DNA from: Prostheceraeus crozeri | Taxonomy: Eukaryota > Platyhelminthes > Polycladida > Euryleptidae | NCBI GenBank assembly: GCA_907163375.1 | Contig: CAJQUW010008924.1 | Span: 124,001 to 188,000, forward strand | DNA: 64,000 nt | Direction: 5' to 3' | Shown: positions 8,001 through 52,518 of the stretch, piece by piece | Layout of the letters: each line of letters begins with the position of its first letter | Numbering within the stretch: the first letter of the stretch is position 1 | Notes under the pieces: model-generated | Databases searched by the model: none | What the model saw: only the letters and a program-made list of their open reading frames with translations | What the model was told of the DNA's origin: nothing | Made by a program: the position numbers and the translations under genes

Positions 8001-9890
8001 TAATCACTTCCCGCGTTGTTACGAAATTAATTTGTTGCCTCGAGTATTATCTGCTTAGAATGTGTCGAACAGAGGATGTCAGATCAAGCTGCTGATATCG
8101 CTCTGCTTCACGCTATCGTCTCCAATTCAATGATGCTTGTCAGATTTGTATACTGTAATTTTTTGGAATGTAGGATATATCCTAAACCCCATGCATCTGG
8201 GGCTTTGCAACGATTAATTTTTACGGACTTTAGACAAATTTGGGAGGAGAGTAACCCATAAGTGTAGAAAGCTTAAAATAGATGACGGAATGCTTGTGAC
8301 TTAAAAAAAAAGTCAGTAATTTATCATGAAGGATACGCCACATAACACACTAATTTATTAATTTTACTTTATGCTACATAAGTTTTGGTGGGTTTTGTTC
8401 ACTTGTTAGCGTTTGATCATATCGCTCCGATCTACATTCAAATGAACATGAATTCTCTCATACAACACAAAACAAGTGTCGGAACAGGCTTGACAGTTGA
8501 GTTGTTGGTCTCATACAGGCAAAGAGTGAAAGATTATCACCTCTATTCGCATGAAGTTGCGCCGAGATATTGACGTCCACATCTTGCAGTAGACCCAGGT
8601 TGAAAATCTACCAACCCAGTACTACATGTATGTGGTTTAATGTCTTAATTAATCTAAGTTCACATACAACGATAAGCAATGTGTGCACTAATTTCACACC
8701 AACCTGTGTTCAGCAAATTATGAAAACGATCTATACGTGAATAATTCATCCAGGATAAATGTCGGTGAATCCTGGAAAATGTAGCTGCAAGAGATAGCAG
8801 AGCTTCATACGCTTCCGCACGCTAGTGACCAGGAGGCATGTAGACACTAAATTTAGGGACCATCCGCTTTACGCCGTCGGATGTGTTCATGTTCAGCGGA
8901 AATAAAATGGAAGAGAGTGAGTGAAACAAACGCTTCAGTTGATAAGAGCACTGAAATCCAAGTGGGCTACATATATGTTATCATATAATGGATATGGAAG
9001 ATCGATATCCTTAAGTTCTTTAAGAAGTACAGGCATGCATTTAGCAGCCATATACTCGTAGTCGCAGAAACATATAAAGAAGGTTGTGACAAAGGTCAAG
9101 ATAATTAATGAAAATAATTGAATGTGCATTTTATTGTTGGAATTCAAAGCAATATTATAAAGTTAGAAGTAAAAAATTGCAGTGTTCAAATATACAATTT
9201 CTGTAGCTTGATCGCAGTGTTTCACTCATTAAATACGTGAAAGCATTTAATGAGTGAGTTCGACAGACAATAACTTCGGAAAACTTCTCTGCTTAGCAAA
9301 ATAAGTCCCGACGAACCGGAACATCTGCAGCCCTGTAGCTTGTAGAAATGAAAACGACATTCAACATATTCAACGTAACAAAGTGCGTCAAGGTAACAAA
9401 ATTAAAAAAAAAACAAGCTAACGACTGGTTATTTTTTTATGTGCTAAATATGACATGGCTAAAAGAAAATCATTATATCCTAAAATGTCTAGAAATTTAA
9501 AAATACTTACTAGAAGGACAAGCAACGGTTCTCCTCTCCTCATGTGGAATGAATTGGTGAGTAAGTCGCTCTTTTCAAAATTATGTTTATCACTTATATA
9601 TTGAAAAGATTCTATTTAACAGTCTGCCCATTCAGATGATAAAAGGACAGGTCTGTTTCCAATCAAAATATCAGATCTAGCTAGCACAGCGGGATTATGC
9701 TATCTAAAATCTACCAAGTGTGTGAGAGAAAAATCATTAAGTTATAAATCATGAGTGATTCATGATTAGCAGCATGGATGTAGGGTACATGTCACAGGAT
9801 TCAATCTTAGCTCCTTGTTTGGAAGTTTACATATCATCGCCATTCGCCAAAAAACAACACATTATCCGACATTTAGTCTGTAGTGTGTCG
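5100..9890. other. Gene-free AT-rich stretch
   Basis: I find no recognisable domain, transposon end or RNA gene here. Open frames are short and unsupported. One strong minus-strand donor (GTAAGTTATC near 6110-6116) has no convincing exon in front of it. A 12-bp hairpin at 9223-9256 is listed separately. If the left-hand host gene is real, this is intron. Confidence 0.5.
9223..9256. repeat. Perfect 12-bp inverted repeat (hairpin)
   Basis: The 12-bp arms cactcattaaat and atttaatgagtg are separated by a 10-nt loop. Seen directly; no associated gene or element ends were found. Confidence 0.6.
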
Positions 9891-12984: not shown

Positions 12985-13995
12985 CTACTGCTCGTACTCA
13001 GCTGTGCGCTTCCTATTCAAATTGCTGGTTGCAATTTTCTCGCTTCGCACAGTCAGTGCCAGCTTCCTGCGCATCGATGCGGCTTTGACGGACTGCCTCA
13101 GCTTTTCCGAAATTGGGACTTTCAGCACCCCTCCGTAGAAATTGATGGCATTGGACACCACTCGCTGTCCCATGATTGAGTCCTCATGCAGATTCTCAAC
13201 CAAAATGTCTTTGTTGATTGAAAAACCGCTCTCAACAGCCGCCTGGCCGTGAAACATGATTAGAACTTTTCGTGTCACCGCCCATAGTTGAGTGTAGTTC
13301 GCATCATATTTCATCAATTTCGCGTAAAGCGAATCCAGGCGGTGGTCGTCCACATCAAAGTTTAGCAGATCGGTCTTTTTTTCGTTGTCTTTGAGGAAGT
13401 GACTGAACTGCTTTTTCGCTGAGTCCGCTTCCGAGACACTGACCTGCTCCGCCTTCAGCAGTTCCTCCAGCAGTACGTCAAATCGCTTGACGCAGGTGTT
13501 GGGTTTGCTCACCATCTCCTTGGGAGACAGGGACGAGGCACCTCTTATCGACCGGTAATTCAGTGGACTTCTCTCGAATAGCTTTTCAATCATCCCGATC
13601 AGGAATTTCTGGCATTGACTGAAGAACTCCAACTTTCTTTGAGGATGCAATTTCTTTGGCAAAGCCCGTTGTGCACCAAATCCGATATCAATTGAAGTTG
13701 AGTCCTTCAAATTGGATTCATTTCTCAGATCCAAGTCCTTCAATTTCGAAAAGGAGGAACCGCATTCTTCAATTGCAGATGCTTTGACTATCCGTTGAAG
13801 GCTATCCACAGACAGTGTCATGAGGAATTCATACAAGAAGGGGACCAAAGGTTTCTCGCTTTGAAATCGTCGCAAGAACGGTTCCATTTCTGATGCCATG
13901 AACTTGAAGAATTCCAGTTTTGCTTTGCACAGCTCATCCCGAGTGGCTTCCTTCACAATATCGAAAGACTGGATGTTGGGCTTCGGTTTGACTTC
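12985..13995 (-). pseudogene. hAT-transposase-like protein, C-terminal half (after frameshift)
   Basis: This frame continues the protein begun at 15308 but is shifted by one register. Its upstream-most meaningful residues (about 13995, KPKPNIQSF…) pick up where the other frame reads FDNLKS. It has the hAT landmarks that follow the catalytic core: a helical stretch (FFKFMASEMEPFLRRFQSEK) and, near the end, the region equivalent to the hAT C-terminal motif (HGQAAVESGFSINKDILVEN). The tail is basic (RRKLALTVRSEK…NRKR). The family is widespread in marine animals as uncharacterised, often partly domesticated, hAT-like proteins (family knowledge). A single small indel near 13990 separates the halves, so the gene is either broken or carries a sequencing error. 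Overlapping plus-strand frames are shadows. Confidence 0.75.
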
Positions 13996-15308
13996 AGATT
14001 GTCGAAGACGGAAATCGCACGTTGACAGCAACTCTGATTTTCCACCCAACGAGTTTTGCAGAACTTCTGAGGAAAATGATCGGAATCTGTGAGATTACTG
14101 TATTCCGCTCTACGAGCAGGCGAATCTTTCCACAACAGATACATGGCACGCAGGATGCTTTGCAGACCCCACTTTGTGTGCTGGTGCCCGTGTTGAAGTG
14201 CATTACTGACTACGTGTAACGAGCAAACTCCTGTGTCGATCAGCGATTTCTTGGTTTTGTCATGGAAGTCTTCGGAAAAAAGTTTGTAAAATAGAAGGTT
14301 CACATTTGGACCATCAAGGCTGATCTGAAGGAGCTTCTTGATATCCAATTGCGAACCACCCTTCTCAAGTCCTTCAATGACACTTTTCAGAAGATCTTGT
14401 GAACTGGCATGACCAAGGAATATTGACGTCAAGTAATCGGAGTGAACGATGTCCGAACTATTGTCATAATATCGCAGCCAAATGTCCATCTGGCCCTTAT
14501 GGACAGCTTTGTTGTGGGATTCATCAAAAGATACTGCAAATTGACCCGATTGTGCTACTCTGGCAATGGTTTCCTTCGAGAAATGTGGACTAAGGCCATA
14601 GATAGTCACATAGGCCAATTTGTCCTTTGCCATTTGGTAACGTTGAGCAATAGCGCTGTCAGGAAACATTGCACGAAAAATGTCTCCCTGATCGTTGCTT
14701 GAGTTATATGAACGGTGCTTCTTGACACAGTCGAGGGCCCAAATGATTTCAGCTGTCGTTGTCTCATGTTGAATAATAAATGAGGACGTCAACGTTGGAT
14801 TCTGTGATGAAACGGCTGAGACAGACTTGCAGGATTCAGCAGTTTCGGCGGACTTGGAGGATTCAGCGGTTACGGCGGACTTGGAGGATTCAGCGGTTTC
14901 GGTGGACTTGGAGGATTCAGCAGCAGTGGCGGACTTGGAAGATTCAGCGGTTGTAGCGGACTTGGAGGATTCAGCGGTTTCGGTTGACTTGGAGGATTCA
15001 GCAGCAGTGGAGGACTTGGAAGATTCAGCGGTTGTAGCGGACTTGGCTTTAGACGAATCTGCCTTTGAGTTAGAGGATGCTAGCCAGAAAGTGCCCTTCA
15101 CCGATTCACGATTTTTCTTATGAGTTGGCCGACTTGCATGAGAATCGATAGCCGACTTTCCCATGTTTGAAATGTCAAACGCTTTGTTGCAAGCTTTGCA
15201 AAATGCGCGATGTTGGTCGCTTGACACAGCTTGTAGCCACGCTTTCCACTGTGGATACAGAGTTGAATCTAACCACTCACGTTTGAATATGCATTTGTAT
15301 TTGCCCAT
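13953..15308 (-). CDS. hAT-transposase-like protein, N-terminal half with zinc finger and 9-residue repeats
   Basis: This 451-codon frame starts MGKYKCIFKREWL. The ATG is immediately preceded by a splice-acceptor-like tract (gattttcctttccag), so an upstream noncoding exon is possible. Residues ~37-63 form a BED/U1-like zinc finger (C37, C40, H57, H63). Residues ~91-163 are about eight copies of a 9-residue (A/T)xTAESSKS unit encoded by a 27-nt minisatellite, a likely flexible linker. From ~190 on it matches the hAT RNase-H-like core: FAVSFDES carries the first acidic residue, LQISLDGPNVN the second, and KTRWVEN precedes the insertion domain. Beyond the frameshift near 13990 this frame runs out at 13953 without meaning. 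I found no TIR or TSD around it, so it may be a host-captured gene or a decayed transposon. Predicted nuclear and DNA-binding. Confidence 0.8.
   Translation of the reverse strand: MGKYKCIFKREWLDSTLYPQWKAWLQAVSSDQHRAFCKACNKAFDISNMGKSAIDSHASRPTHKKNRESVKGTFWLASSNSKADSSKAKSATTAESSKSSTAAESSKSTETAESSKSATTAESSKSATAAESSKSTETAESSKSAVTAESSKSAETAESCKSVSAVSSQNPTLTSSFIIQHETTTAEIIWALDCVKKHRSYNSSNDQGDIFRAMFPDSAIAQRYQMAKDKLAYVTIYGLSPHFSKETIARVAQSGQFAVSFDESHNKAVHKGQMDIWLRYYDNSSDIVHSDYLTSIFLGHASSQDLLKSVIEGLEKGGSQLDIKKLLQISLDGPNVNLLFYKLFSEDFHDKTKKSLIDTGVCSLHVVSNALQHGHQHTKWGLQSILRAMYLLWKDSPARRAEYSNLTDSDHFPQKFCKTRWVENQSCCQRAISVFDNLKSNRSPTSSLSIL
14824..15050 (-). repeat. 27-nt coding minisatellite inside the hAT-like gene
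   Basis: Plus-strand units such as gcggacttggaggattcagc repeat about eight times with few substitutions and keep the reading frame. They encode ETAESSKSA-type repeats. Copy number is expected to vary between alleles. Confidence 0.85.
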
Positions 15309-15399
15309 CTGGAAAGGAAAATCAATGGAACATTTTAATCATTCCAAATCCATGCCATCTTTACACAATGGAATAATGAGAGACGTACGTAGGTAGACC

Positions 15400-26515: not shown

Positions 26516-27650
26516 TCGGGGTGTTACTACAGCATCGAAATTCGACATGGAAATGTTGTGAAACAAAAAGTGTGCCTTCCAATTCTGATGAACATTATTT
26601 CTCGGGACCGATTTCGTTCTATTATGCGATACTTGCGATTCGATGACAATGGACAAAGGAAGGACAGTGTGAAAAGAGATAGATTTAGACTCATCTCTCA
26701 GTTATGGGATCAATTATTTGAAAACAGTCAAGGCACTTATGTCCCACAATAGAATATCACAGTAGACGAGCAGCTCTTGCCATGTTAAGTTCGATGTCCA
26801 TTCATCATTTATATGCAGAACAAGCCCGACGAATTCGATATCAAGTTTTGGATTCTATGCGAGGAGGTAGGGAGTAACTTCGTTTTGAATGGATTCCTTT
26901 ATCTTGTCAAAGAGAGTACGAAGGTCAATTGCGTCAACACGTTGTGTTGAAGTTGATGTTGCCATATTTTCGGAAAGGAGACGTGACCACGGACAGTTTC
27001 TTCACACCAAGAACTTTGGCCGAGAACTTGTTGAAGGTTGACACCACCATTGTTAGTACAATAAGGCGAACAAGAAGAGAAATTCCAAGAGGAATACTTA
27101 CGATTGAGACTTCAATTGATCTGTACGGTTGTGATGCCTACATGCTCGTTGAAAACCAATCACGCCTGTTGCGTACAAGGGGAAAAGAAATAAAATGGTT
27201 GTTTTTCTGTCTTCCCCACATGATTCCTGCAAGATACAGGACAAGAACTAAAAGTTACCAGAGCCCATTGCATTCTACAATGCTACTAAAACCGAAGTAT
27301 TCTATAACGCCGAAGTAGGCCTATACCGCAAAGGCTCCTAGTCGGCGTTGGCCCATCACTATGTTTTACAACATTCTCGACATACCAATTATCAATTCAT
27401 GGATAGTTTATAAAAAATGTTTGAACATTCAATTACCGCGCCAGTCATTCATGCTGCAACTTGGTGAACAACTGTGTTCCTTTCACCACAGATCAATCCC
27501 GCCAACTTCTCGTGATTATTTTGCCTGTACAGAAACCTCATCAAAAAGGCGAAATTGTCAAGTTAGTGCTCACCACAACAAAACAAACTGGGAAGCTGTG
27601 TTGCAGTGTGTATGGCAAATAGACTTACGCTACCTGTACCTGTGTTGACT
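26516..27650 (+). pseudogene. piggyBac-like transposase, 5′-truncated and frameshifted
   Basis: Pieces in different frames make up the piggyBac (DDE_Tnp_1_7) domain: ISRDRFRSIMRYLRFDD, then ITVDEQLLP with the first catalytic Asp and MQNKPDEFDIKFWILCE, then HVVLKLMLPYFRKGDVTTDS with the second Asp. FYNATK follows, and a deletion removes the GVD-xx-D block with the last catalytic residues. The C-terminal frame (MFYNILDIPIINSWIVYKKC) leads into a decayed Cys-rich finger (CQVSAHH…C). Internal stops follow YVPQ and LLPC. No TTAA ends can be assigned. Dead copy. Confidence 0.85.
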
Positions 27651-30964: not shown

Positions 30965-32335
30965 GAAAGTAGACTCCTTGGGACCTTCTGGTGTACCTCT
31001 TCAATAAGATACTGACATCGGGAAGGATACCGGACGCGTGGCGGAAAAGTGTTATTACACCTATCTTCAAGGGTAAAGGAGACCATGAAGATGTTGGCAA
31101 CTATCGCGGTATCAAGCTTCTCAGTCAAACCATGAAGATTCTGGAGAAGATTTTGGAGAAGCGTCTTCGTGATCTTATTGAGGTGGATATGAATCAATTT
31201 GGCTTCAGACCAGGAGTTGGCACAACAGACCCACAATTTTGTCTGAGAATGGCGATGGAGCAAAGTTCGTTGATCTCGAAAAGGCCTACGATACAGTCCC
31301 AAGGAAGCTGATATTGAATTGTCTCCGCACACGGGAAGTACCGGAGTGCTACATCCGTTTTATACAGGACATGTACAGGGACAGCACAACTGTAGTGAGA
31401 TGTACATGTAGACAAGGTGAAAGTCGTTCCTTTCCTGTCTCGGTTGGGCTACATCAAGGCTCAGCTTTAAGCCCTTTTCTCTTCATCGTGTTAATGGATG
31501 AAATTTCCAAGGATTGCAGAAGAGGTGGTCTCTGGGATGCCGACGATCTCGTAATATTTAGAAGCAGTCATCAAGATGTAGAGCGAAGGTTGGAAGCATA
31601 GACATCCGATGTCTATGGTTGGAAGCATGGAGGAGAGCATTTGAGAGCAAGCCTGAGGGTAAGCCGTTCCAAGACCGAATACCTGTCGTCCGACCCAAGA
31701 AGAACAACTATGGAGATTCAGAGTCAGCCGGTGAAGAGTGTGGACTGCTTTAAATATCTGGGGTCCATGGTCAATACTGAGGTGACCAGTGCAGGCGATG
31801 TTGCACATCGAGTACGTTGCGGCTGGAACACATGGAAGAGACTGACTCCAGTGCTATGTGACAGAAGGATGCCATTGAAGATAAAGAGCAATGTATATCC
31901 TCTATGATCAGGCCAGCAATCCTTTATGGTTCTGAGTGCTGGGCCCCTCTCAAGACAGATGAGCAGAAGCTGCACGTGGCGGAGATGCGGATGCTAGGGT
32001 GGATGCAGAACTACACACGCTTGGACTGGAAGACCAATGAAGAAATAAGATCTAATGTGGAGATAGGCCCTATTCAAGAAGTGGCAAGAGCAAGAAGGCT
32101 GTCATGGTTTGGTCATGTGCAGCGTCGCGGAGAGAGTCATCCCCTTAAGAAAGCATCACGTCTGCAAGTGGAAGGAAGAAGAGGTAGAGGCCGCCCGAAG
32201 AAGACCTGGACAGCGACAGTAACCGCCGACATGAAGGCAAAAGGAGTGGATGCCTCCCTGGTCCACAACCGGAAGGAATGGAAAAAGAGGACTGGACCTA
32301 CCCTGCAATACGCGGGACAAGGGTCGACAAGGTGA
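30965..32335 (+). pseudogene. RTE-like non-LTR retrotransposon RT, 5′-truncated and broken
   Basis: Four frames carry successive RT blocks. 30970-31260 has RIPDAWRKSVITPIFKGKGD, NYRGIKLLSQ and NQFGFRPG. 31260-31600 has VDLEKAYDTVPR and VGLHQGSALSPFLFIVLMDE. 31641-31907 has RVSRSKTEYL and DCFKYLGSMV. 31904-32335 has the C-terminal MIRPAILYGSECW and ARARRLSWFGHVQRR. This block order is typical of RTE-type elements. The catalytic site reads DADD preceded by a short deletion, and a deletion removes sequence between the fingers and palm, so the copy is inactive. A 15-bp direct repeat (tagactccttggga) marks the truncated 5′ edge. Confidence 0.85.
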
Positions 32336-32910: not shown

Positions 32911-35724
32911 TAGTGATGCAAATGGAAAATTTTCCAATTTTTTCAAAATTTTCCGTTGAAATTTTTTTTCGGTGATTGACGTTTTTGCCTTTGTTTTGGA
33001 GACTTGTTGCAGTCGTTTGAAAGGACTATGTAATATTCAAAGACCGAAAACTTCTCTATCATCCCTGCATGTTAACTTTTGGGACCAACTGCACCCTCCA
33101 TGTCTATTTCAGATCTTTCCAACTGAATATCAGACATTAAATGGATTTCAGATTTCTCTAATTGAATTTCAGATATCTGTGAGAAACTCAACTTCGAAAG
33201 GATCTTAGATTCAACTGGAGAATCTCCAATTCATCTGGAAAAGTTTGAAATTCATTTAAGTGGATCTGAAATCGATTGGGAACTATCTGAACCATCTGAA
33301 CCAGCTAGAAATGGAATGTGTAGTTTGTCCTCCACGAAGATATCGGACAATACGCCAGAAGTTAGAAGCTATCATATAGATATTCTTCTACTCATCACAG
33401 ATATATTTAGTTGCCAAATATCTCACGAGTTTACAGTCTTTATATATCGTCGTTGTCCGTGCAAAACTTCACATGTGTCTTAAAGTGCAGATGTTAAAAC
33501 CTCACATGTGCATTTTGGACAAAAATCATTTTTTTTGATAAATCAAATAAAGAGACCTTATGCCATCGTCATGCAACATATTTTTACCGAAGTCTACTGG
33601 GAAGCGTGTTTTCTTGCAATTCAAAAATATAACATGGACAATCAAAACCTCACATGTGCAGTTAATGTCAAAACCTCACATGTGCAATCTAATGTCAAAA
33701 CCTCACATGTGCAGTTCAATGTGTAAACGTCACATGTGTCGCTCATAAGTGTACTGAATATGGCCTTGGAATGAAACAAAAAAATAAAATCTAATTGAAC
33801 TGTATTGTGTATTTCTATTCGAATATGCAATGTTGAAATTATACGTTTTATTCATTTCTAGCAGAATATAAACAATCGGCATGCAGATAATATAGCGCGA
33901 CTTTAACCTTCGACCTTTTCCTTCTGTTCTTATGAGTCAAGTTATTCGGTAGCAATCATTTTGTCGTCACGCCATGATGAGTAATAAAAACTAATAATGT
34001 TCTTCGATTTCTATTGTCAGAATTATAGACTGCGTAACTTCACATCGATCAATAAGCTCAAAATTCAGCCAACACAGGCATGAATAGAAAGCTGTACCTA
34101 AATTCAGGTCAGTGATGCTTTGATGGATATCGAAGCACACAGCCGTCAGTTGATTTGTGTTTGTGAGTCTGTGAATACGTGTCTTTTACAAACGTCTTGG
34201 ATTTATTCTAAAAGCATTGCTGATTCAGTCTGTAAATGGATACTACAAATAGAGGATACAAAATGGTGGATACAAAAAGTACAAGCACCTACAAGAACTA
34301 AAGAAATTCGTGCTTCGTGATTGTCATTTGTTTTATGACAGCTTGCCGCACTAAACTTCATTGCATGGTACAGGCCTATTTGGTAAGAGAGGCTTGTTCT
34401 GTATGATGAAGCCTGCCATGATTCATGGAGTTTACTATCTAGCTCCTACTTTCATCTTTTGCAATTTTGGATGGAAATATATGTTTCTTCTTGTTCTATT
34501 TATGATCATTTTTCATCATATCCTAAGTTTATTTTAGTAAATTAAGCAATTTGCTAACAATATAATCTAGCGCTTTCTGTTATTATTTTCATCAAATAAA
34601 CGTTGCTATGATAGTCAGTTCAATTCTTCTGAAATTAGGTTGTAAGTAAGCCAGCGTTGTAACTTAGTTTTTGTAATATTGTTAAGAGTTAATTTTAGCA
34701 AATAGACAGCAATTGTTAGTTGAAATCAGAAAATTGACTTAGATTGGAACTTGCAAAATTGATGTACAAGTAAATCCTAAAATGGCAAACACCTCGTATG
34801 TAATGGACAAGCAGAACCTCACATGTGACAAATGGTAAAAACCTCACATGTGTAATGGACAAGAAAAACCTCACATGTGCATAATTTGACCAATGATACG
34901 GTATAGCTTCTATAGAATAACATGATATCATTTCTGAAAATCATAGAATTAGTTGAACTATGAACAGTAAGATCACCATGTAAAGTCCTGTTTCGATTCA
35001 ACAAGTACTCAACAAAATGAACAGTTTTTTTCGTCTACTGAAAAGTTGATAAAATGCACATGTGAGGTTTTGACAAATGCACTTTAAGACACATGTGAGA
35101 TTTTGCACGGACTACGACGCTTCCAATATATGGTCGCTCATGTATAATGTTGTGTTGGACTGTGTGCTTGTACTTCACATGTTCATCAACACATGGAGAA
35201 TTTGTATCATTGCAATCAAGGCTGCATAATAAAGCTTAACTTTCAAGCCATAAACAAACTCCAAAATAAAGTGCATTATTTCTGCTCCAGATCTTTCACA
35301 ATGCACCCCTATTGTAAAGGAAAAAATTCACGTTGTCCCAAAAGATGTCTGTGTTATAACATTAAAAATGGCAACAAATTGCCACAAGCCACTGGTGGCA
35401 AAGGGATGCTCAAAAATCCACGGACGGGATTCGTATTGCTACGATTGTTTTAATCGAAATGATATGATGAAATCAAGAGTTTTAGAACAATTCTATTGAT
35501 GTGTCTATGCCTCGGCTGTGATAGAAAACGTAAAAATTATATCACAAAAAAATTCAAATTTCTTCATTTTTCAAAATCGTTTTATTCAAAATAATGATCA
35601 AAATCACCAGTTTTATAGACCCATTCTATTGGTGTGTACCTCGGCTGTGGAAGCGGTCAAAGCATATAGGGTCTATCACAAAAAATCAGAACTTTCAAAA
35701 TTTTCCGGAAAATTTTCATCACTA
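32911..35724. mobile_element. hAT-type element Y, copy 1, with 8-bp TSD and a nested insertion
   Basis: The left end is TAGTGATGcaaATGGAAAAT and the right end reads ggaaaattttCATCACTA; these are inverted repeats. Perfect TSDs ctgcttcc flank it at 32903-32910 and 35725-35732. Without the nested 1672-bp element it is about 1.14 kb. It contains TTTCAGAT/ATCTGAAAT motif arrays (33100-33300) and a local duplication near its right end (about 35480-35560 and 35605-35700). No transposase is recognisable. An inverted paralogue lies at 43498-44484. Confidence 0.9.
33448..35119. mobile_element. 1.67-kb element with 69-bp TIRs and CACATGTG arrays
   Basis: The left TIR 33448-33516 (cgtcgttgtccgtgcaaaac…) and right TIR 35051-35119 match at 63 of 69 positions as reverse complements. 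AAACCTCACATGTG-type units repeat at about 33464, 33498, 33648, 33672, 33698, 33724 and again at 34812, 34836 and 34864 in direct orientation; the TIRs carry two more each. The paralogous copy of the host element at 43950-43985 has the unoccupied site (acagtctttcttccaatatgg), proving insertion. The flanks show at most a short TSD (atatat-like). It encodes no recognisable transposase, so it is non-autonomous or decayed. Confidence 0.85.
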
Positions 35725-38437
35725 CTGCTTCCCAAGCATCATACGTCACCTGTCCCTTCGCCTAATCAATCCCCATCATCTCCTGACCGGCCCGATCCTG
35801 CAGTGAAGCCGTCCTCATCATCTGTCAAGTTACGTAAGCCGAAGTCTCCTGTCTGTCCAGCTCCGTCAATTCTCCTCTTCAACGCCCGATCCCTCTTCAA
35901 CAAATTTGACGATGTACGTGTAAGAGTTGAGAAATATAACGCTGATGTAGTCGTGATTACGGAGTCCTGGCTTGACTCATCAACCTCTGATCTGTCAATC
36001 TCCCTACCCGGATATCAATTGGTAAGACAAGACCGAGACTCCAACGGAGGCGGCATAGTGTGTTTTTATAAATCAAACTTCAAACTTTCCATCATTAGTG
36101 ATTGATATGTCTCTGATATCAAGTCCAACTTTTTATGTTTTCGAATCGAGCAATTTGATGCCATATTTTTTGTTGTTTATCATCCCTACTTGGGTAAAGT
36201 ATCGTCTCATTCGATTGTTTTGGACTTTATTCAAAATCTAATTGATCACAGTCTCTCGAGCCATTTTATCCTTCTTGGTGACATTAATGACCTCAGACTG
36301 TACATTGGTGACTTTTTTGTGTTGAACAATATGCAACAGCTTGTGACTATGTCTAGTCAGGCAATAACATTCTGGACATCATTGCCTCTAATTTCTTCCG
36401 CATAAATTTGAATCCCCTCAGTCTATTTCTCCCTTAGGTTGCTCTGATCATAAAGGCATTTTTCTCAAGAGTTTCAATTCCCTAAAACATGTTACCACCA
36501 CCAAAGTCAAGGTCCGCTATTTCTCTCCCTCTTCCTTTGCTGTGTGCTATCGCTTCCTCGCTTCGATTGACTGGAATGAGTTCTTCATGCACGTGGTTGA
36601 TGTTAATGATGCTGTTGAACATTTCCAGATGTTTGTTCGTTACGTATACCTAACCTTCTCGAATGAGAGAACTGTTCGCATGAGGAATGTTGATGCTCCG
36701 TGGATGTCCCCATCTTTGAAAGTTCTTTCCGATTCCCGTGACCGTGCCCTCTCTAGGGGCAATTATGCCAAGTATGTTCGGCTCCGGGAGAGATTTCTTG
36801 CTGCGGTTGAAGTTGCCAAGAAGCGGTACTTTTCCCACTAGCACTCCTCCTCCATTTCTGATAGATGGAAATCCATTAATAAACAAATCAAAAGTGTTCG
36901 TAATGATGCTCTTGATCAGTTTCTGATAAATGACCTCAACGATTGCTTTCATTCTGCTTCCTCATCTCCTGACCTACATTTGTTCAACGATAAACGTCCA
37001 GTTCAGAAAACAACGTCTTTCTCTGTCTCTGAGTCGTTGATTGTCAAAATGATCAAACAATGTAAGGCTAATTCAGTTGGTCCTGATGAATTACCTGGGT
37101 TCTTCGTTCGTTCCTTCGTAGACGTTCTCGCCCTACCTCTCACGATCATTTAAATAAGTGCCTTGATAGTCGTGTTTTTCCCAATATTTGGAAGTCTGCC
37201 AACGTCATCCCCATTCCGAAAAACAAAACTGAGCACAGACCTATCTCGATTCTTCCATTCCTAAGTAAGGTACTTGAACGTCTTATCAGAGATCATATAT
37301 TCTCCTACCGTCTCTTCGACAGCCGTTCGACCCCCGGCAATTTGGCTTCATACCCAATGGTTATAGTAGTTGCACTAATGCCTTACTCTCGATTCGCCTC
37401 CCAATTCTTCCCAATTCTGCAGCACACCACACACTGTACAGACAATTACGCTTGAGTGCTCGCTGTAGATTTTCAAAAGGCATTTAATTCCGTTAGCCAC
37501 TCCACCCTTCTCTACTCACTGATAAACCACTTCGACTGTAAACCCTTCGTCATCAAGTTCATTCAAAGCTTCCTCTCGGATCGCTTCCAGCGTGCTTTTA
37601 ACAACGGCATCGCTGCCGAATGGAAGCAGGTTCACAGTGGGATGCCTCAAGGCTCAATTCTTGGCCCGATTCTCTTTGTGACCTTCATTAACGACCTTCC
37701 TAAATTCGAAGACACTAGAGTGGTGGCGTATGCTGATGATGTTACGTTGATTTATTTGGGTAGTGAGAAGTTTGTTGATAATTTCCAGAGTGATGTTGAT
37801 CAATTTAGTCAGTGGTCCAAAGAGAAAAAACTAACAATCAATTCCAACAAGACAAAAAGCCTTCTGATATCAAGGAAACTGTGTAACTCCCCCACTTCTG
37901 TGTCCACTCTTCTCCCTCTCATTGTTGATAATGTTGTAATTGAGGATGTTGACAGTTTGAAGATTTTGGGCGTCGTCTTCTCAGATGATGCGAGATGAGA
38001 AAAACAATTCACTTGTCTGTATGCAAAATGTTGTCGAGCCTTGTTAATAGTTAAGCGCCTGAAAAAAGAACGGCAACCCCGGTCACATTATTTGGCAAGC
38101 ATACATCAGTTTCGTGTTCTGCCACATTGTTTTTTGTTGGCCAGTTATTTGTGATGTAAATGGCAACCAATTTAAAAAGCATGTTCATTTTGATCGCATA
38201 GCCCGCTGGTGGGCATCTGTATCTGCAAATGTCCCCAGCCTGCAGAACATGTTAGACAAATCATGTGTGAAGCTTATATGTAAAATTGCAAGAGACAAAG
38301 AGACTCATCCGCTAGCAGATTTTTTCATCACACGCGACCAGAAGACCGGTATTAGACACACCAGGCAGCTTCTACCGCTCCGTCGACGCTCTGCCATGTA
38401 CAATTCCTCCTTTGTAAAGTATTCTGTACATTCATGA
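35725..38437 (+). pseudogene. CR1-like ORF2: AP-endonuclease and reverse transcriptase, disabled
   Basis: Endonuclease landmarks in order: SILLFNARSLFNK, VVVITESWLD (catalytic Glu), LLGDIND (GDxN) and CSDHKG (SDH). RT follows: ANVIPIPKNK, HRPISILPFLSKVLERLI, VDFQKAFNSVSHSTL, GMPQGSILGPILF, the catalytic VAYADDVTL (intact) and LTINSNKTKSLL. The C-terminal frame at 38114-38437 ends …QLLPLRRRSAMYNSS. Stops at 36105, 36405, 36841, about 37150 and 37453 break it into at least six frames. Codon choice is C-richer than the surroundings. Protein function when intact: target-primed reverse transcription. Confidence 0.88.
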
Positions 38438-38519
38438 ATTTGCCACTGTATTGAATTCCATCATGTCATTACCGCCATATGTTTTGACGAATAAAGATCT
38501 ATTATTATTATTATTATTG

Positions 38520-38934
38520 TAACAAGGCTGAAATACATCTTCAAGGCTGAAAAATATCTTCATCATAAAAGTCAAGCTGCGACGGGTGGAGAAGGAGACA
38601 GCCGAGACACACATCAAGAATAATGGGAATTCAGAATTACAGTACCTATATTAACCGAGATGATAAGTATTCCTCGTCACCGAACTGAGTCTTCTATTGT
38701 CGCTATCTGTACGCTGTTCATGCTTCTTCTTATCTCCCTCATAGGTAGAATAAACCGAGTATATCTGGACCATTGGTTTTATCTAAAATAAAAAAAAGCT
38801 TAGCAAGGAGATAACTACAGGGTAAGGTAGGCGAGAGCTCAGGGTTGCTGGATACGCAATACGGAGTTGGTAGAAAGCAATAGACTATCATAATTCAATA
38901 ACTATCATATATTAACTAAGTAGCCTGTTATCCA
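38520..38934. other. Gene-free spacer
   Basis: Nothing recognisable lies between the (ATT)n tail of the CR1-like element and the start of repeat X. Confidence 0.5.
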
Positions 38935-39354
38935 GAGTGCTAGAATATGCAGGTTACATTATTATTAAATCCCCAATGTGTAGACAATTTCGATTTTACT
39001 AAGTGAACTCGAGGGGATACAGTCGGAATTGTTTCCACATGTCAGATGTGTACATTTATGCAGTTTTGAAGAAATTACAACCAAAGATTACAACGGATTT
39101 GACTGATCATGATAGCATAATGCCAAAGGAAATGATATTTTTTTTACAGATCGTTTGTGTCATGACAGCCTTGGAGAGGTAATTTATATTTAACTAGCAA
39201 CTCGATGACCTGCTATTGCTTTCATGCTGAATCGCAGGAGAATCTTCTTAGGCGTGATCATATCATAAGCAACCTGCCACTGGTAGAGCATAATAATAGA
39301 ATCAAACATATAGTAGGGATATGTAGGTAGAGTGTCAACTCAAAAAAGTATCTG
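38935..39354 (+). repeat. Dispersed repeat X, copy 1, left half
   Basis: It aligns in inverted orientation with 44660-44995 and 48440-48835. Shared blocks include attaaatccccaatgtgtag, cagccttggagag, ttcttaggcgtgatcat and gagtgtcaactcaaaaaagt. It is cut at 39354 by the CCCGTAGCAA element and resumes at 43214. Confidence 0.8.
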
Positions 39355-39393
39355 CCCGTAGCAAGACAAATTGCATCTCATATGCATTGAGCG

Positions 39394-39490
39394 GGATGCA
39401 TTATTTTGGGCATGCATTGGAGGGGGATACATCCCAAGATGCTTTTTGAGATGCATCCCTCCTCCAATGCATGTCCAAAATAATGCATCC
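39394..39490. repeat. Subterminal palindrome of the CCCGTAGCAA element
   Basis: Arms of about 40 bp (ggatgcattattttgggcat… and its near complement …atgtccaaaataatgcatcc) flank a 16-nt loop. Further copies of ccaaaataatgcatccgg follow at about 39553 and 39609. Confidence 0.8.
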
Positions 39491-41948
39491 GGATGCATTC
39501 CAGGATTCATCCCTAGAGGCATTCTAGGATGCATCTATATGCCAGATGCATGCCCAAAATAATGCATCCGGATGCATTCTAGGATGCATCTACATTTCAG
39601 ATACAGGTCCAAAATAATGCATCCGGATGTAGTAATCGGGATGATAAGTTTAGTTATAATTCAACCTTACATACTACTGTTAGCCGGCCTACCAAATGTC
39701 GAAAAATCAAAATATCGATCACTTCGATCAGCAAGGCTATATTGATAGGAAATGTTAGAGATTTTGTTACAATGTTGCCATATATTTTTCGTGAAGAGTT
39801 CGCATCTTATCACAATCTTGCTCACGCTTGGCAACACGGTCGGAAATTTCACGGAACCCATTGCTGAAATAAAGAAATTGAACACAACAATAAAACACCC
39901 ACAGTGCGGATCGGAAAATGTATTCGGATATACATGTATGTGGTGATTAAATCTACCACGAATTCAGATAATGGAAATTTCGGTATAACAGGTCAACTTT
40001 GCAGGCCTGCTTTTTCTACATAATGGTTCTGATGGCATTATATTTATGGCTTAGACAGAAGCAATACAGTAGGCATCCAACAATATCAGTTAATTTTTCG
40101 AGGCAGGAATTGACAGTGTTCGAGGACAGTGATTTAATTCAAACCTTTCAGTATTTCAAAGGGAGACAAATTGTGTGTGAATATTTTTTTTTCAATTATG
40201 CATGTACGTTTTCAATAGTTGCTGACATGAAAAATCAGAAAATATTACAATTTAATTAAGATTTATGCAAAGTTAATACAGTAGGCTAATAGGATTATCC
40301 CAAGTTCTGGTGACATATCTTATTACAAGTACAAAATAGATTCATGAGTCTAAGCCAATTCTTGAAGTTCTATACAATTTGTCAGGCAGGCTATAGTGAA
40401 AAATTGAAATCAAAAGGAATAAACTTATTCGTTACTATCGAGAGAACAATCAAACCTGTTTCCTTGAAAACTTGTCGAGGATCTCATCAAAATCTGAATT
40501 TAAGTCCGGGTATTTTAAAACAAACATGTATGCACACATTCCCCAAGTCAGTTTAAGCCTAACCTAAACCTATCCTACAATCAATATTTGGTAGCCTTGG
40601 TGAAGCGATTCTTGTATCATTTAGTTTTCAGTCCAGTGTGATGGCTTCAGAATCGACGTAGAACAATTAGGGGTCTAATAAAAATGATTTTCTCATGAAT
40701 GTATTTGGAAAATGTATTTAATGAATTTTACAAGTGCGCATTAATTTTTGTCATGAAATCTTTAAGAATGAAATTTTATGGCTTTTTTATCAAAATTTAA
40801 AGCCTTTTATCATTTGTAGTTTAATTACGCATGGAAAGCACTTTGCTTCAATTTATTCGTAAGACTGAGGTTATAAAATCGCAAAAGATAAACCCGGAAT
40901 TCCTCAAAACAATAATTAGGAATCCAAGCAAGCATTTTGTAAAATCATAAGATATAGGTCTATGTGTCAACCAGCTTTTTGTTCAGTACTGCTGACAGAA
41001 GGAAGGATTCACAGGGGACATAATTCAACATTTATATTTATAGAAATAAATGCAAAATGATATTCTTACACAAATTAGCACAATGAAATTATCATTTTAT
41101 CATTACCGATCTTTGGAGAACAGTATTCGAATAGCAGAAGAAGTCCTATGAATTACAATTCCAGCATACCTGCACAGTGCACATTCTAAAGATCTAAAAT
41201 TCTAAAACTTGCAAAAATAAACATGCATGTATAATAAGCAGATAATAAATTCAGAGAATAAGCAGATAATTTCATATTCAAAGATTTTGCATTTGTGAAT
41301 ATCTCAATACTAATAGGAAGAATCCTTATGCAATCTCAACTTATTCCATCAAGAATTGATGCCACATGCATTCGAGGTAAATATATACCGAAATCATAGT
41401 TTTGCATTAAAACATGTTTTTCAAGTTCTACGTGCACATGAATGATTTTGTTGACACATCTTCGCTTTCGTTTGAAGAAGTTTCCTGCATGAATTAATGA
41501 ACAGATGCTTCGAGATATAAGCAGACATTGCTTTGAAATAAAATTGAAATAGTGTTTTAAATGTAATTCTTTGAGATTTATTCTTTTGATGAAATAGTGG
41601 AAGTCTTTGTGCCTGTAATTTAATTGGTTAAGGTTCATTTACTCCGAGCCTGATCTCACAAAAATAACATGACAAAATAACCTGATCATATTAGAATTAA
41701 ACGAATAATTCTTGCTGACGATGGCGAGAGAAGAGCCTCGCGTAGACACCAATTCATTATATGCACCAATTTAAAGTTTCTTCCTTTTATTTATTTTAGC
41801 TGTAATTATATTTTTGATTAATAATTTAATTGATTATTTAATGTTCAAAAGTCTTTCCCTATGTTCAATGTGATTGAAAGATTAGTTATTTAATGATATT
41901 AATCTGGGTCACAAGAGTTTCGTCGCAATGATGGACGCCGCATACAAT

Positions 41949-42040
41949 GAAAACTTACCTTTGAGGAGATGAATCCATGCAGCTATCTTCGGATTACTGC
42001 CGTGCACCGTTTCTTCTTCAAAGTTTCTTCAAGTTCAAGT
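41949..42040 (-). other. Possible exon inside the CCCGTAGCAA element
   Basis: A minus-strand frame reads …SNPKIAAWIHLLK and ends on an excellent donor (AAAG|GTAAGTTTTC). A second frame over the upstream part is strongly coiled-coil-like (FINDLKKKLELEETLKKK). The acceptor is not clear. It may be a remnant of the element's own gene. Confidence 0.3.
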
Positions 42041-43213
42041 TTCTTCTTCAGGTCGTTGATGAATTTTTCCGAGATTATAGGCAACATATTCAATCCTGAG
42101 ATTCATTTTTACAAAAATTCCTATGTATGGATGAGATTGAAGCTGCAAAAAAGTGGACAGATTGCAGTATACATGTGCATTGTGCTCGTACGTCATAAGA
42201 GAATGTGTTTTTTAAGTTAAATCGGGGTCCATTGTAACTTTTGGTTTTAGGCAAACGTGGACCTTATGTGCTATACGTAGTAGTGAAGATTACTGATCAC
42301 TCAAACCTTGATGAAATTAGCTTTTTGCAAATTAGAAGCGCCGTCAAATAGATTAGAAATTTAGAATAATTTCATTAGATATTTTAATTGAGCAGATCAT
42401 CTGCATATAGAAAATAGCAATCACAAAAGCAAATCTATAAACAAACTTTTTGGTTGGAGAGTATAGGAGGTATAGATGCAGAAATGGATTCGTCTTAAAA
42501 AATTCTTTCACTGTTATAGTATAGACATTTTGAAACTCGAATTATTCGGGGATAACGCCACTCTCGGAAATGAATCGAAGTGTCCCACAGACATTCTTCT
42601 GAATCGACTAGAAATGTTGGATCCGCTGGAACTACTATACTTATCACGACTTAATACTTGTACTTATCATATCAGGAGTTTCGGAATTCTTGAAGTGACT
42701 GCGATATATAATGAATCTAAGTAAAACCAGAGGTACTGCGACTTTTTACAAACTTACCTTAAGACTCAGTTGAATAAATGAAGCACTGTGCATGGAGCAA
42801 ATAAACATATCCATGACGCCATGTGCAACAGTTAATCAAACGCACATCGACGGAAGGAAACAAGATGTCTTCTAGCTCGGGATGTTTGAAAATTCAGCAG
42901 TGCATATGGCATTGGTCGTTTGGCTTGCGCTATTGATTGCAGATCTGTCACATTCAACAATGCACGGTGAGCGGGGATGCATGACTGCATTTACAGAGAC
43001 TCGGATGCATTCCACAAGCATTCGATTCTTCCACGACTCTCAGTGCAGCTGCAGTTGAGGCTCATGGTTGAAGGGTAACTGCATTGAATGCACATTGGAA
43101 TGCTTTAGGATTCATCGAGATGCATCCTGGTATGCATCTAAGTGCAGTCAGATGCATCCAGATGTATCCAGATGTATCCAGATACATCCGACTGCATTTA
43201 ATTTTGCTACGGG

Positions 43214-43395
43214 TGTATACAGTGAAAATTTTTGTATGAAGAGATTCAGTTTTTTGCGGGGATTACGTTCCCGTGGTCCAAAAAATTATTTGAGCAGTTT
43301 TAAAAAATGTCAAAATTTTGCCAATTTAAATACTACCAAGATGACTCCCCGTTGTAAGTAGTATAAAGCAAGTTGGATATCAAAGGAATGAATAT
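43214..43395 (+). repeat. Dispersed repeat X, copy 1, right half
   Basis: It continues the copy cut at 39354: tgtatacagtgaaaattttt… to caaaggaatgaat. It matches the inverted copy 48282-48450 through cagttttttgcgg, ccaaaaaattatttgagcag and tttaaatactacc. Confidence 0.85.
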
Positions 43396-43497
43396 TTGCT
43401 AATAATCATCCTACTAAGCTGAAATCAGGCTAATTATCAGGGGAATTTCATGTTCCGTATTGCAATGGAAGTCTTCATGAAAAAGTCGAGGTATTAT

Positions 43498-44484
43498 CAG
43501 TGATGAAAAATTTCCGTGGAAAATTATGGAAAAATGTAGAAAATTTTGATTTTTTTTATGGTCCCTACAATTTGAGCGCTTCCACTGCCGAGGCAGCTGC
43601 GTACCAATAAATTGGGTCTAAAACTCTTGATTTCATCATTATTTCGATTAAAGCTATCGTAGCAATACGATTTCCGTCCGAGGATTTTTGAACAGTCCTT
43701 TGCCAGCATCAGTGGCTTGTACTAAATTGCTAGTATTTTTAATTATCACACAGACACCGTTTGGGATAACGTGAATCTTGCTTTACAATAGGGGTATAGT
43801 TTCATACAATGTGAAAGATCTGGAGCAAAAAAATATACTTTATTTTAGAGTTTGTCAATTGCTAGCTTCAAAGTTAAGCTTTATTATGCAGCGTTGATCA
43901 TAGTGATCCAAATTGTCCATGTGTTGATGAACATGTGATGAAGTATAAGCTCACAGTCCACGCAGCATTCATGAGCGACCATATTGGAAGAAAGACTGTA
44001 AACTCGTGAGATGTTTGGAAACTAAAGATATCTGTGATGAGTAAAATAATATCTATGATAGCTTCAAACTTCTGGCGCATCGTCCGATATCTTCGTTGAG
44101 GATACACATCCTCCATTTCTAGTTAAGATGATTCAGACAGTCCCAAATCGATTTCAGATCTGCCCAAATGAATTTCAGATATGATCCAGATGAATTGGAG
44201 ATCTCCAGTTGAATTAAAGATCTTTTCAAAGTTGAGCTGGTGACAGATATCTGAAATTCATTCGGAAAGATCTGAAATAGACATGGAAAAGGTGTAGTTG
44301 GTACCAAAAGTTAACATACAGGGATGATAGAGAAGTTTTCGGACTTTAAATATTACATAGTCTTTTCAAACGACTATAATAAGTCTCCAAAACAAAGGCA
44401 AAAACGTCAATCACCAAAAAATAAATTTCAAAATTTTCCAGAATATTTTGAAAAAAATTGGAAAATTTTCCATTTGCATCACTA
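43498..44484. mobile_element. hAT-type element Y, copy 2 (inverted, unoccupied)
   Basis: This is the reverse complement of the outer parts of 32911-35724 without the inner insertion. Ends: CAGTGATGaaaaatttcc at left and …ttttccatttgCATCACTA at right. The flanking octamers ggtattat and gacattgt match at 5 of 8 positions, all differences being transitions, as expected for an old TSD. Short minus-strand frames (43524-43709, 43898-44116) have no family. Confidence 0.85.
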
Positions 44485-47212: not shown

Positions 47213-48281
47213 TTGAAAAAAAAGAACTATTAAAAATTTTGAAATATCAAAACAAAACCGCAACATGTAAAAGAAAAATGTTACATATAGCATGATTTTA
47301 TCAAAATTTTGTCTAATTATTCATCATAGATTTCATGAATCTTATGCGAAGTTTAGGGTTATTTGTTCCGAGTGGGTCGAAAACGACCCAACATCAGTTT
47401 TGCATAAAATAGTGTAAAAACTCATTAGGAAATGCATTATAGATGCATTTCTAGGTGAAGTTAATGTGACAACAAAATAGAAAATCCCCATAAATACTTT
47501 TGAAATATCGGGTAAAAATATCTCTGACATTTGCGAAAAAACCTCATCTTTTATAGATTTCAAAAATCGACAAAAAGAAGCAATTGATTCAGTTTGAGAG
47601 CACATATCTCTGATCACATTTCATAAGATCATCTTGAAATGTCTGTCATTACTCAGTAGACATGACATGTATATAGTATATGACAACAGGCACATGAATT
47701 AATTGATTAGCAGTTCAGAAACATAGCTTTAATAGAGTTGGGTCGTTTTCGACCCGCTCGGATGTAATGGGTTAATTATTTGCAATAGATCCATATTTTA
47801 TTTTTCAGCTTGGTAAGTAACTCGAAGTGCGTTGTTGACATGGGTGCCCTATTAATAGCCAATTCCTCAGTATATTCGGATTCTCACTGAAATTGTCAAT
47901 ATAGTCATGAATTCTACAGAGGGAGTTTAGTGCTTATCACGATATACCTCATCAGTCTTCATCTGAATATTGTTTCTTCCAAATTGATAGTACTGCATTA
48001 AATTGCTGTATTACCGCTCTCATCTTTAACAATTTTTTTCAGAGAAACTACTGAATGAATATTCTTGAAACTTATCATATAATATCAGTGGATTATGCTT
48101 CACATCTTGTGCCATTTCCAAGCCTTTTTATCGCATTGCACATCGTGCAGCCGACAAAACAGCAATTTCGCTCCATTGCCGCAATGCTTTTTTTGCCACG
48201 ATAAGAACCGTACTAAAATGGGTTCAAATTTAAGCATCTATTTCTCATCTAGTCCTTTTAAACAATTAAATATCTTTGATT

Positions 48282-48835
48282 CATTCCTTTGACATCCAAC
48301 TTGTTTCATTCTACTTATAACGGGGCGTCATGTCGGTAGTATTTAAATTGGCAAAAATTTAGCTTTTCAAAACTGCTCAAATAATTTTTTGGACCGCTGG
48401 AACGTAATCTCCGCAAAAAACTGAATCTCTTCATATAAAAATTTTCACTGTATACAGACACTTTTTTGAGTCGACACTCTACCTATACTTTACTCTATGG
48501 TTGTCTGTGATATGATCGCGCTTAAGAAAATACCCTTGAGGTTGAGCATGAAAGTAGGAACCCATCGAATTGCAAATTTAACAAACATTATCTCTCCAAG
48601 GCTGTCTGACACTAAGAATCTGTAATATACCATCATTCTCTCTGCATTACTATCATGACTATTCAATTCCGTGGTAATTTCCTCAAAACTGCAAAACTTT
48701 GCGTATCTCACATTTTGGTAACAATACCCAATTGAATTCACCTCGAGTTCATTTAATAGAATCGAAAGTGTATACATACTGGGGATTCAATAAATGCTGA
48801 GTTACACACTCTACCTAATACAAGTATACTTAACT
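48282..48835 (-). repeat. Dispersed repeat X, copy 3 (complete, inverted)
   Basis: This is the only unsplit copy that spans both halves of X: attcattcctttgacatcc at its left through gtatacagacacttttttg to cactctacctaatac at the right. It supplies the empty site for the 39355-43213 insertion. A 95-codon minus frame (48490-48777) overlaps it but has stops in the other copies and no family, so X is probably noncoding. Confidence 0.85.
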
Positions 48836-51668: not shown

Positions 51669-52303
51669 TTGTGCAGGAAAAGACGACCATGTTGTCAATC
51701 GATTTCGAGTTTATTAAAAACTCATCTTCAGGACAATACAATCAAAGGAAACAAAGGGTTATATACAAACTGCATGGTCACAACACAACTCACTTAAGAT
51801 AGTTGGAAAAAAAGCTAAAATTAGAACATGTGCAGCGGAATTGATGAACAGTTCTCATTAATTAGGTGGGCACTGGTTGATTTGATGCACAGTGTTTCAG
51901 CGATGCGAGTGTGAGCTGTTTTAAAGATGACCTTGAAGTCCATTAAGCTTGCCTCATGCGGGTGGTGGGTGATTTCAGTTGGCGTAGGCTTGCCTTTCAA
52001 ATGTTCTGTCACTCTCGTAGACAGATGTCTCCGTGTCTCACCTATATAACAGTTTGAGCACTGTCGACATTTAAACTCATAGACTATGTTCGATGATAAA
52101 CACGGAGAATGTTTGTTGGGAAAAATACTAGCGGTCTTAAATGTTTTAAATGCAACCTGCAATTTATAATCAGTTTTATCTAACATAGAATTAATAACTT
52201 GAACAGATCGAAATCGATTGACAACATGGTCGTCTTTTCCTGCACAAGAATTCTGTTGTGTCTGATTCTCCAACAAAATGATTTTTACCATCATTCTATT
52301 CAC
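51669..52303 (-). pseudogene. Penelope-like element, C-terminal GIY-YIG endonuclease remnant
   Basis: The 160-codon minus frame ends with IVYEFKCRQCSNCYIGETRR followed by HLSTRVTEHLK. This is the Penelope-type GIY-YIG nuclease with its CxxC insertion between the GIY (here VYEF) and YIG halves, the conserved Arg ~97, and a Glu ~136 in RIAETLC. Downstream on the same strand is a telltale stretch (cctgaagatgag…) of Penelope tails. A 40-bp exact inverted repeat joins 51669-51708 to 52208-52247, inside the coding part. The RT domain is absent; 5′-truncated. Confidence 0.88.
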
Positions 52304-52518
52304 GTTATTGAAATAGCAAGATTCTACAAAATCAGAGAATTTTGATTTAAAGGCAAACTATTGGAAAATCGAAGTTTTCAGACTATCGAATTCCATTTTC
52401 CCTTTACTCATATAACTACTCATTTGCGCTGAAAAACATTTATTGACACAATATCAATTGTTCAACATTAGGTCGATTCAATCCACTTCCTTCGCATAAT
52501 GTATTTCTGTCTGAAGAC

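Follow-up and report, generated by a model that had tools for sequence, protein, structure and literature searches.

The 3859-bp element at positions 39355..43213 (plus strand) of the 64,000-nucleotide stretch of Prostheceraeus crozeri DNA analysed here (hereafter, the window) is a repeated non-autonomous transposon, an object of a well-supported and ordinary kind. Its extent was defined by alignment, terminal repeats and related copies elsewhere in the genome. We consider it probable that the element belongs to a family of cut-and-paste class II transposons with terminal inverted repeats (TIRs), which would be moved in trans by a transposase made elsewhere. The properties of a non-autonomous class II TIR transposon were all found, namely inverted ends, a target duplication of fixed length, dispersal through the genome and no recognisable transposase of its own, the last with a Pfam search of low sensitivity. 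The window corresponds to positions 124001-188000 of contig C7419 in the assembly that was searched (G000; 2.05 Gb in 14,165 contigs), and left and right refer to its plus strand.

Insertion site and terminal structure

The element starts with CCCGTAGCAA and ends with TTGCTACGGG. The left TIR (39355..39364, plus strand) pairs with the right one (43204..43213, minus strand) perfectly over 10 bp, and imperfect similarity continues for about 20 bp. A TG dinucleotide is present on either side of the element (39353..39354 and 43214..43215), as read directly and as seen in the alignment to an empty site. The latter is an unsplit copy of repeat X on the minus strand (48279..48793), which was aligned to the rejoined flanks of the element (38400-39354 joined to 43216-44200, with one TG dropped). 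The alignment spans 574 columns, of which 429 are identical and 62 contain gaps, and shows no break at the insertion site. The original prediction had described an exact insertion into repeat X of a 3.86-kb element with CCCGTAGCAA ends and a 2-bp target duplication. Since the rejoined flanks align to the unsplit copy without a break, these boundaries are exact, as are the perfect 10-bp TIRs and the TG/TG duplication.

Arrays of GATGCATC/ATGCATCC-type palindromic units occupy both subterminal regions (39379..39630 on the left and 42970..43192 on the right). With up to one mismatch allowed, we counted 12 occurrences of GATGCATC in the left 300 bp and nine in the right 359 bp; 500 shuffled versions of each stretch with the same mononucleotide content gave a mean of 0.13 and a maximum of 2. 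Two more occurrences are located in the intervening 3200 bp and 24 in the remaining 60,141 bp of the window. By analogy with CACTA transposons, whose description includes subterminal repeats in the part of the source that was compared (PMC8978399), these units are probably transposase binding sites. The left region also includes a hairpin (39394..39490) with 33-nt arms (39394-39426 and 39458-39490) that are 94% complementary. Both the arrays and a hairpin had been anticipated at the two ends; the arrays are indeed present in both subterminal regions, while the hairpin was found in the left one only. Of 15 copies, 13 contain patterns of both hairpin arms (6-8 mismatches allowed), the exceptions being the copy at L011, in which the second arm was not found, and the C130 mini-copy, in which the first arm was not found. 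The second arm of the C10888 copy is a poor match.

Copies across the genome

A genome search with the element produced at least 94 match rows from the best 40 of 2448 loose candidates. The left-end 25-mer, searched with up to three mismatches, has 92 genome-wide matches (53 and 39 on the two strands; control, 0+0), and the right-end 23-mer has 248 (119+129; control, 0+0), including 47 exact ones. The bare 10-mer CCCGTAGCAA shows no genome-wide enrichment (455+644 against 855+747 in the control), so that only the longer end patterns and convergent pairs of ends are informative. Searching with the ends, a check suggested in the original prediction, recovered the same boundaries at different flanks, and thus not the result named there as refuting (other copies of X with the internal sequence but other boundaries).

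The inexact right-end matches include a different repeat carrying CCCGTAACAA. We rejected these matches as element ends, as the two stretches that were read (L067 and L068) share their flanks on both sides, meaning that CCCGTAACAA is internal to another repeat there. Within its constant flanks this repeat (L067:710-732, L068:2495-2517) contains ACTGCATTTAATTTTGTTACGGG, identical to the right end of the family in 22 of 23 letters. Judging by this similarity, it is possibly a fossil family copy inside another repeat.

Identical 2-bp target duplications of varying sequence flank 17 of the 19 copies with both ends readable. The first layout consisted of 20 copies, with both ends in place in 16 of them; C7624, C1806 and C10973 were dropped, since one end was missing. 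Fourteen of the 16 have matching duplications (TG, AT, TT, AA, AA, TT, TA, AA, CA, TC, TT, AT, AA and TT). Three further matches come from C5403 (TA/TA, with the right end CCCATAGCAA), C2849 (AT/AT) and the approximately 103-bp mini-copy in C130 (CT/CT). The two mismatching cases are C478 (CG/TG), which could be a result of CpG decay, and C946 (CA/AG). For the set of 17 copies without C5403 and the C130 mini-copy, the chance of at least 15 matching duplications is 6e-16, with the sites taken as independent. Related copies thus share their ends at other flanks, with matching 2-bp duplications in 17 of 19, which identifies the element as mobile and these boundaries as its own.

Sister copies have near-identical ten letters at their ends. 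The ends that were read start with CCCG or differ from it by one letter (CCAG in C4242, TCCG in C2849 and CCCA at the right end of C5403), although the end searches themselves presuppose CCCG. Copies that keep both ends range in size from approximately 103 bp (read) to 14.6 kb (known from end coordinates only). Several divergent subfamilies (L009-B, L010, L011, L013+L014 and C2849) share blocks with the window copy at approximately 70-85% identity. At 60 of the 92 left ends we sampled the sequence from +300 to +1000. Some family sequence was present at 54 of them; the six without it are the L129/L130 pair, one mini-copy and three truncations or short forms.

The window copy itself has been shortened. 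Many match rows, 90-95% identical, break at query positions 1841/1850, which places a deletion scar at 41195..41204. Only 8 bp separate the two blocks here, in contrast to 747 bp in the fully read 4623-bp sister copy in C10888. Copy A has an equivalent stretch, parts of which recur in the copies at L010 and L013+L014. As these parts are common to all three, they are ancestral, and the window copy lost them. Judged from the alignments, it derives by shortening from a form of roughly 4.6 kb.

Another family copy is located just past the window end (C7419:192239-196897), approximately 25 kb from the window copy; it is 4659 bp long and flanked by AT/AT. The window also contains sequences resembling other mobile elements. 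Two overlapping minus-strand ORFs of 369 and 461 residues (12985-15338) look by eye like a frameshifted hAT-type transposase and have no Pfam match. Positions 26878-27318 match DDE_Tnp_1_7 (piggyBac-type), 31182-31601 match RVT_1, and 35500-38440 match RVT_1 and an endonuclease domain. A GIY-YIG match below its cut-off (51821-52357) marks what is presumably a Penelope-like element.

Coding content and the search for a transposase

The profile search of all six frames proposed in the original prediction returned only weak, sub-threshold Pfam matches. These were Sushi (E-value 0.026) in the window element and Tic22 (0.079) in the 7.8-kb copy at L010. In L013, which covers 9.5 kb of a copy 12 kb long, nothing exceeded the cut-off (DUF4808, 0.035). 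A separate scan of one ORF in L013, which overlaps a 1-kb repeat nested there, brought DUF4808 to an E-value of 0.0037 (18.3 bits, the cut-off being 27). The weight of these negatives is limited because a stop-free EnSpm-like ORF described below, a representative of the very class of interest, is itself nearly invisible to Pfam (DUF4218, E-value 0.12). By inspection, with no formal test, we saw no codon periodicity in the window copy, L010 or the joined L013+L014 copy (L1314). In their comparisons, mismatches occur at every codon position and gaps have many different lengths. No transposase was found inside any of the copies with matching ends that were read, nor did we see in them a DDE transposase bearing the C(2)C and H(3-4)H motifs.

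Several copies are lengthened by nested elements, recognised by eye as LTR-retrotransposon ORFs (C2849), LINE-like ORFs (L011) and a Penelope-like ORF (C4242). L013, too, is lengthened by other repeats nested inside. The interior of the 12-kb copy (L013+L014) was considered as the missing gene and rejected, as it consists largely of other repeats. One 2.1-kb part of it, E2, is also found at other places and, judging by contig, some copies of this subfamily contain it as well. A search with an 85-residue piece of E2, which scored 150 of 506 candidates, gave at least 144 matches, none of them with an open frame longer than 186 residues. A 1-kb repeat, 83% identical between L010:5388-6390 and L013:2434-3434, lies near the same internal junction in the two copies and runs in opposite directions along the element.

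One left end, at C3107:416867, leads into a stop-free ORF of 519 residues (L129, with a duplicate, L130). The ORF is EnSpm-like, as indicated by motifs recognised by eye together with the sub-threshold DUF4218 match. In C9389, C10814, C1944 and C1833, four other places, alignments to the element carrying this ORF begin at L129 297-300. It is thus a separate transposon nested approximately 171 bp inside a family copy. Accordingly, we rejected its transposase as the autonomous partner, since the other copies of its element start inside and not at the family end. The nested element (L129:300 onward, C3107:417039) begins with CCCAGCAAAA in both duplicates. Its first 27 letters (up to three mismatches) occur at one place genome-wide, the duplicate being two letters shorter in an A run. 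A resident EnSpm-like transposon that may also start with CCC is a weak pointer to a CMC partner, given one locus, its duplicate and four alignment starts.

An ORF 95% identical to that of the nested element is present at C10814:114136-115701 within an open frame of 686 residues. A search with the 519-residue ORF, in which 83 of 2186 candidates were scored, gave at least 83 matches, among them the ORF itself and close copies. When these were compared by eye with the lists of family ends, none of the matches listed was found between family ends except those in C3107. Likewise, with the resident EnSpm-like ORFs as queries, tblastn against the retrieved loci and the window detected only L129 and L130, all other E-values being at least 5.1. 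A PDB search with the nested ORF and a search of a phage collection returned no matches. Separately, a 237-bp segment in the region of the nested element (L129 ~8649-8885) has matches in a tandem array spaced at 298 bp (C10056:13709-18545) and in short arrays of many other contigs, a possible transposon-associated satellite.

Affinities of the family and alternative explanations

In our judgement, the likeliest mover of the family is a CMC-type (EnSpm/CACTA-like) enzyme, at slightly less than even chances. Non-autonomous CMC elements, as characterised in the excerpts compared, share with the family short terminal repeats, direct and inverted short subterminal units and a duplication within 2-5 bp. 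The last is the range given for the CMCT clade, in which the ends are in most cases 5'-CA..TG-3' (PMC12730594, likewise in the part compared). Here, the duplication is 2 bp long in 17 of 19 readable copies, the subterminal arrays comprise both direct and inverted short repeats, and the apparent CCC start of the resident EnSpm-like element is an additional point in favour. In contrast, the ends of the family are CCC..GGG and not the CAC..GTG or CA..TG found in these descriptions, and no end that was read begins with CA. In addition, the duplication is 2 bp as opposed to the 3 bp stated in the same excerpts for CACTA and TET-bearing EnSpm, and no transposase has been linked to the family. Because of the ends unlike the usual CA..TG, we did not file the family as EnSpm/CACTA, but it may work like one. 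A transposase supplied from elsewhere would bind the element ends and the subterminal GATGCATC units, excise the element and insert it at a target whose strands are cut 2 bp apart. Repair of this stagger would then produce the 2-bp target duplication.

The 4-bp target duplication of piggyBac transposons is TTAA. Their CC..GG ends resemble those of the family, but the duplication, 4 bp long in the excerpts compared (PMC4482050/PMC10045372), differs from the varied 2-bp duplications observed here. Plavaka, described from fungal families, has a similar duplication (2-bp or 2-3-bp), yet different ends, TGT..ACA or CATCA..TGATG, in the part of the source compared (PMC12730594). According to the same limited excerpts, Tc1/mariner elements in general duplicate TA and ISL2EU elements duplicate AT inside A/AT/T (PMC4482050/PMC10045372). 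Among the 17 matching duplications of the family, TA accounts for two and AT for three, the others being TG, TT, AA, CA, TC and CT. The target sequence is thus free, which argues against both of these groups. It had been suggested from the sequence that the ends fit no superfamily that could be named, and this holds against the literature descriptions compared, which are partial.

In view of these differences, it might be argued that the family represents an unrecognised superfamily or group with CCC..GGG ends, a sequence-free 2-bp duplication and a transposase of its own. None of the groups in the excerpts compared combines such ends with such a duplication, a text search for the end letters in open-licence full texts returned no transposon in any listed title, and we recognised no paper describing the family among the titles and abstract starts of the open-licence literature. 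On the other hand, termini are known to vary within superfamilies, the comparison involved descriptions from open-licence literature alone and not a transposon library such as Repbase, and the copies that were read contain no transposase that would define such a group. We therefore regard this explanation as unlikely.

An intron-containing gene on the minus strand had been proposed for the interior of the element. In its fullest form, a working spliced gene would comprise an exon at 42758-43213, an intron at 42143-42757, a second exon at 41959-42142 and a second intron from 41958. Both predicted donors are present on that strand, and the signals follow in the order donor, acceptor, donor. The first donor, GTAAGT (AAG/GTAAGT) at 42752..42757, is retained in 7/7 copies and 27/28 aligned rows. 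The acceptor-like TTTTTTGCAG at 42143..42152 reads CAG or TAG in 6/7 copies, and outside this count L1314 also has CAG. The second donor, GTAAGT (AAAG/GTAAGT) at 41953..41958, is retained in 5/6 copies with the site and in 24/27 complete rows, the rows in both counts being mostly close copies with the window copy included. Moreover, 0.12 MAG/GTRAGT sites are expected in 3.9 kb on both strands, whereas two AAG/GTAAGT sites were found. A binomial estimate with assumed rates made the conservation of these signals significant at most rates, and we considered it as proof of a gene. A local control removed this significance: 17 of 18 letters are conserved at each of the three signals, a level that 34% of 1070 local 9-mers also attain. 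When the shared ATG of exon 2 is taken as the start, a stop codon follows after 6 to 23 codons in each of the seven copies, and L010 has lost the ATG itself. Together with the sub-threshold Pfam matches and the lack of codon periodicity by inspection, this leaves the donor sequences standing but their membership in a gene weakly supported, so that a working spliced gene is very unlikely. A possible explanation of the signals is that they belong to the former untranslated 5' leader of a lost transposase gene.

Least probable of all, and in our view quite improbable, is the derivation of the family by deletion from a PHIS-type element (a relative of ISL2EU): ISL2EU duplications are 2 bp and those of PHIS elements 0-4 bp in the excerpts compared (PMC4482050, PMC10045372), but the predominance of targets other than AT, the usual start of PIF/Harbinger repeats with A or G, and the THAP and YqaJ proteins of most autonomous ISL2EU candidates, none of which were found here, all speak against it.

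A non-autonomous TIR family moved in trans therefore remains our preferred explanation. Whatever the mover, CCCGTAGCAA together with 2 bp of free sequence makes a clean and testable signature, absent from the superfamily descriptions in the excerpts compared. It is conceivable, if unlikely, that this signature (CCC..GGG ends and a 2-bp stagger without sequence preference) marks a group of animal DNA transposons yet to be described, of which the autonomous form, with its own transposase, is rare in this genome or already lost from it and several non-coding subfamilies persist. If an autonomous copy were found, it would either widen the range of ends known for EnSpm/CACTA or define another group.
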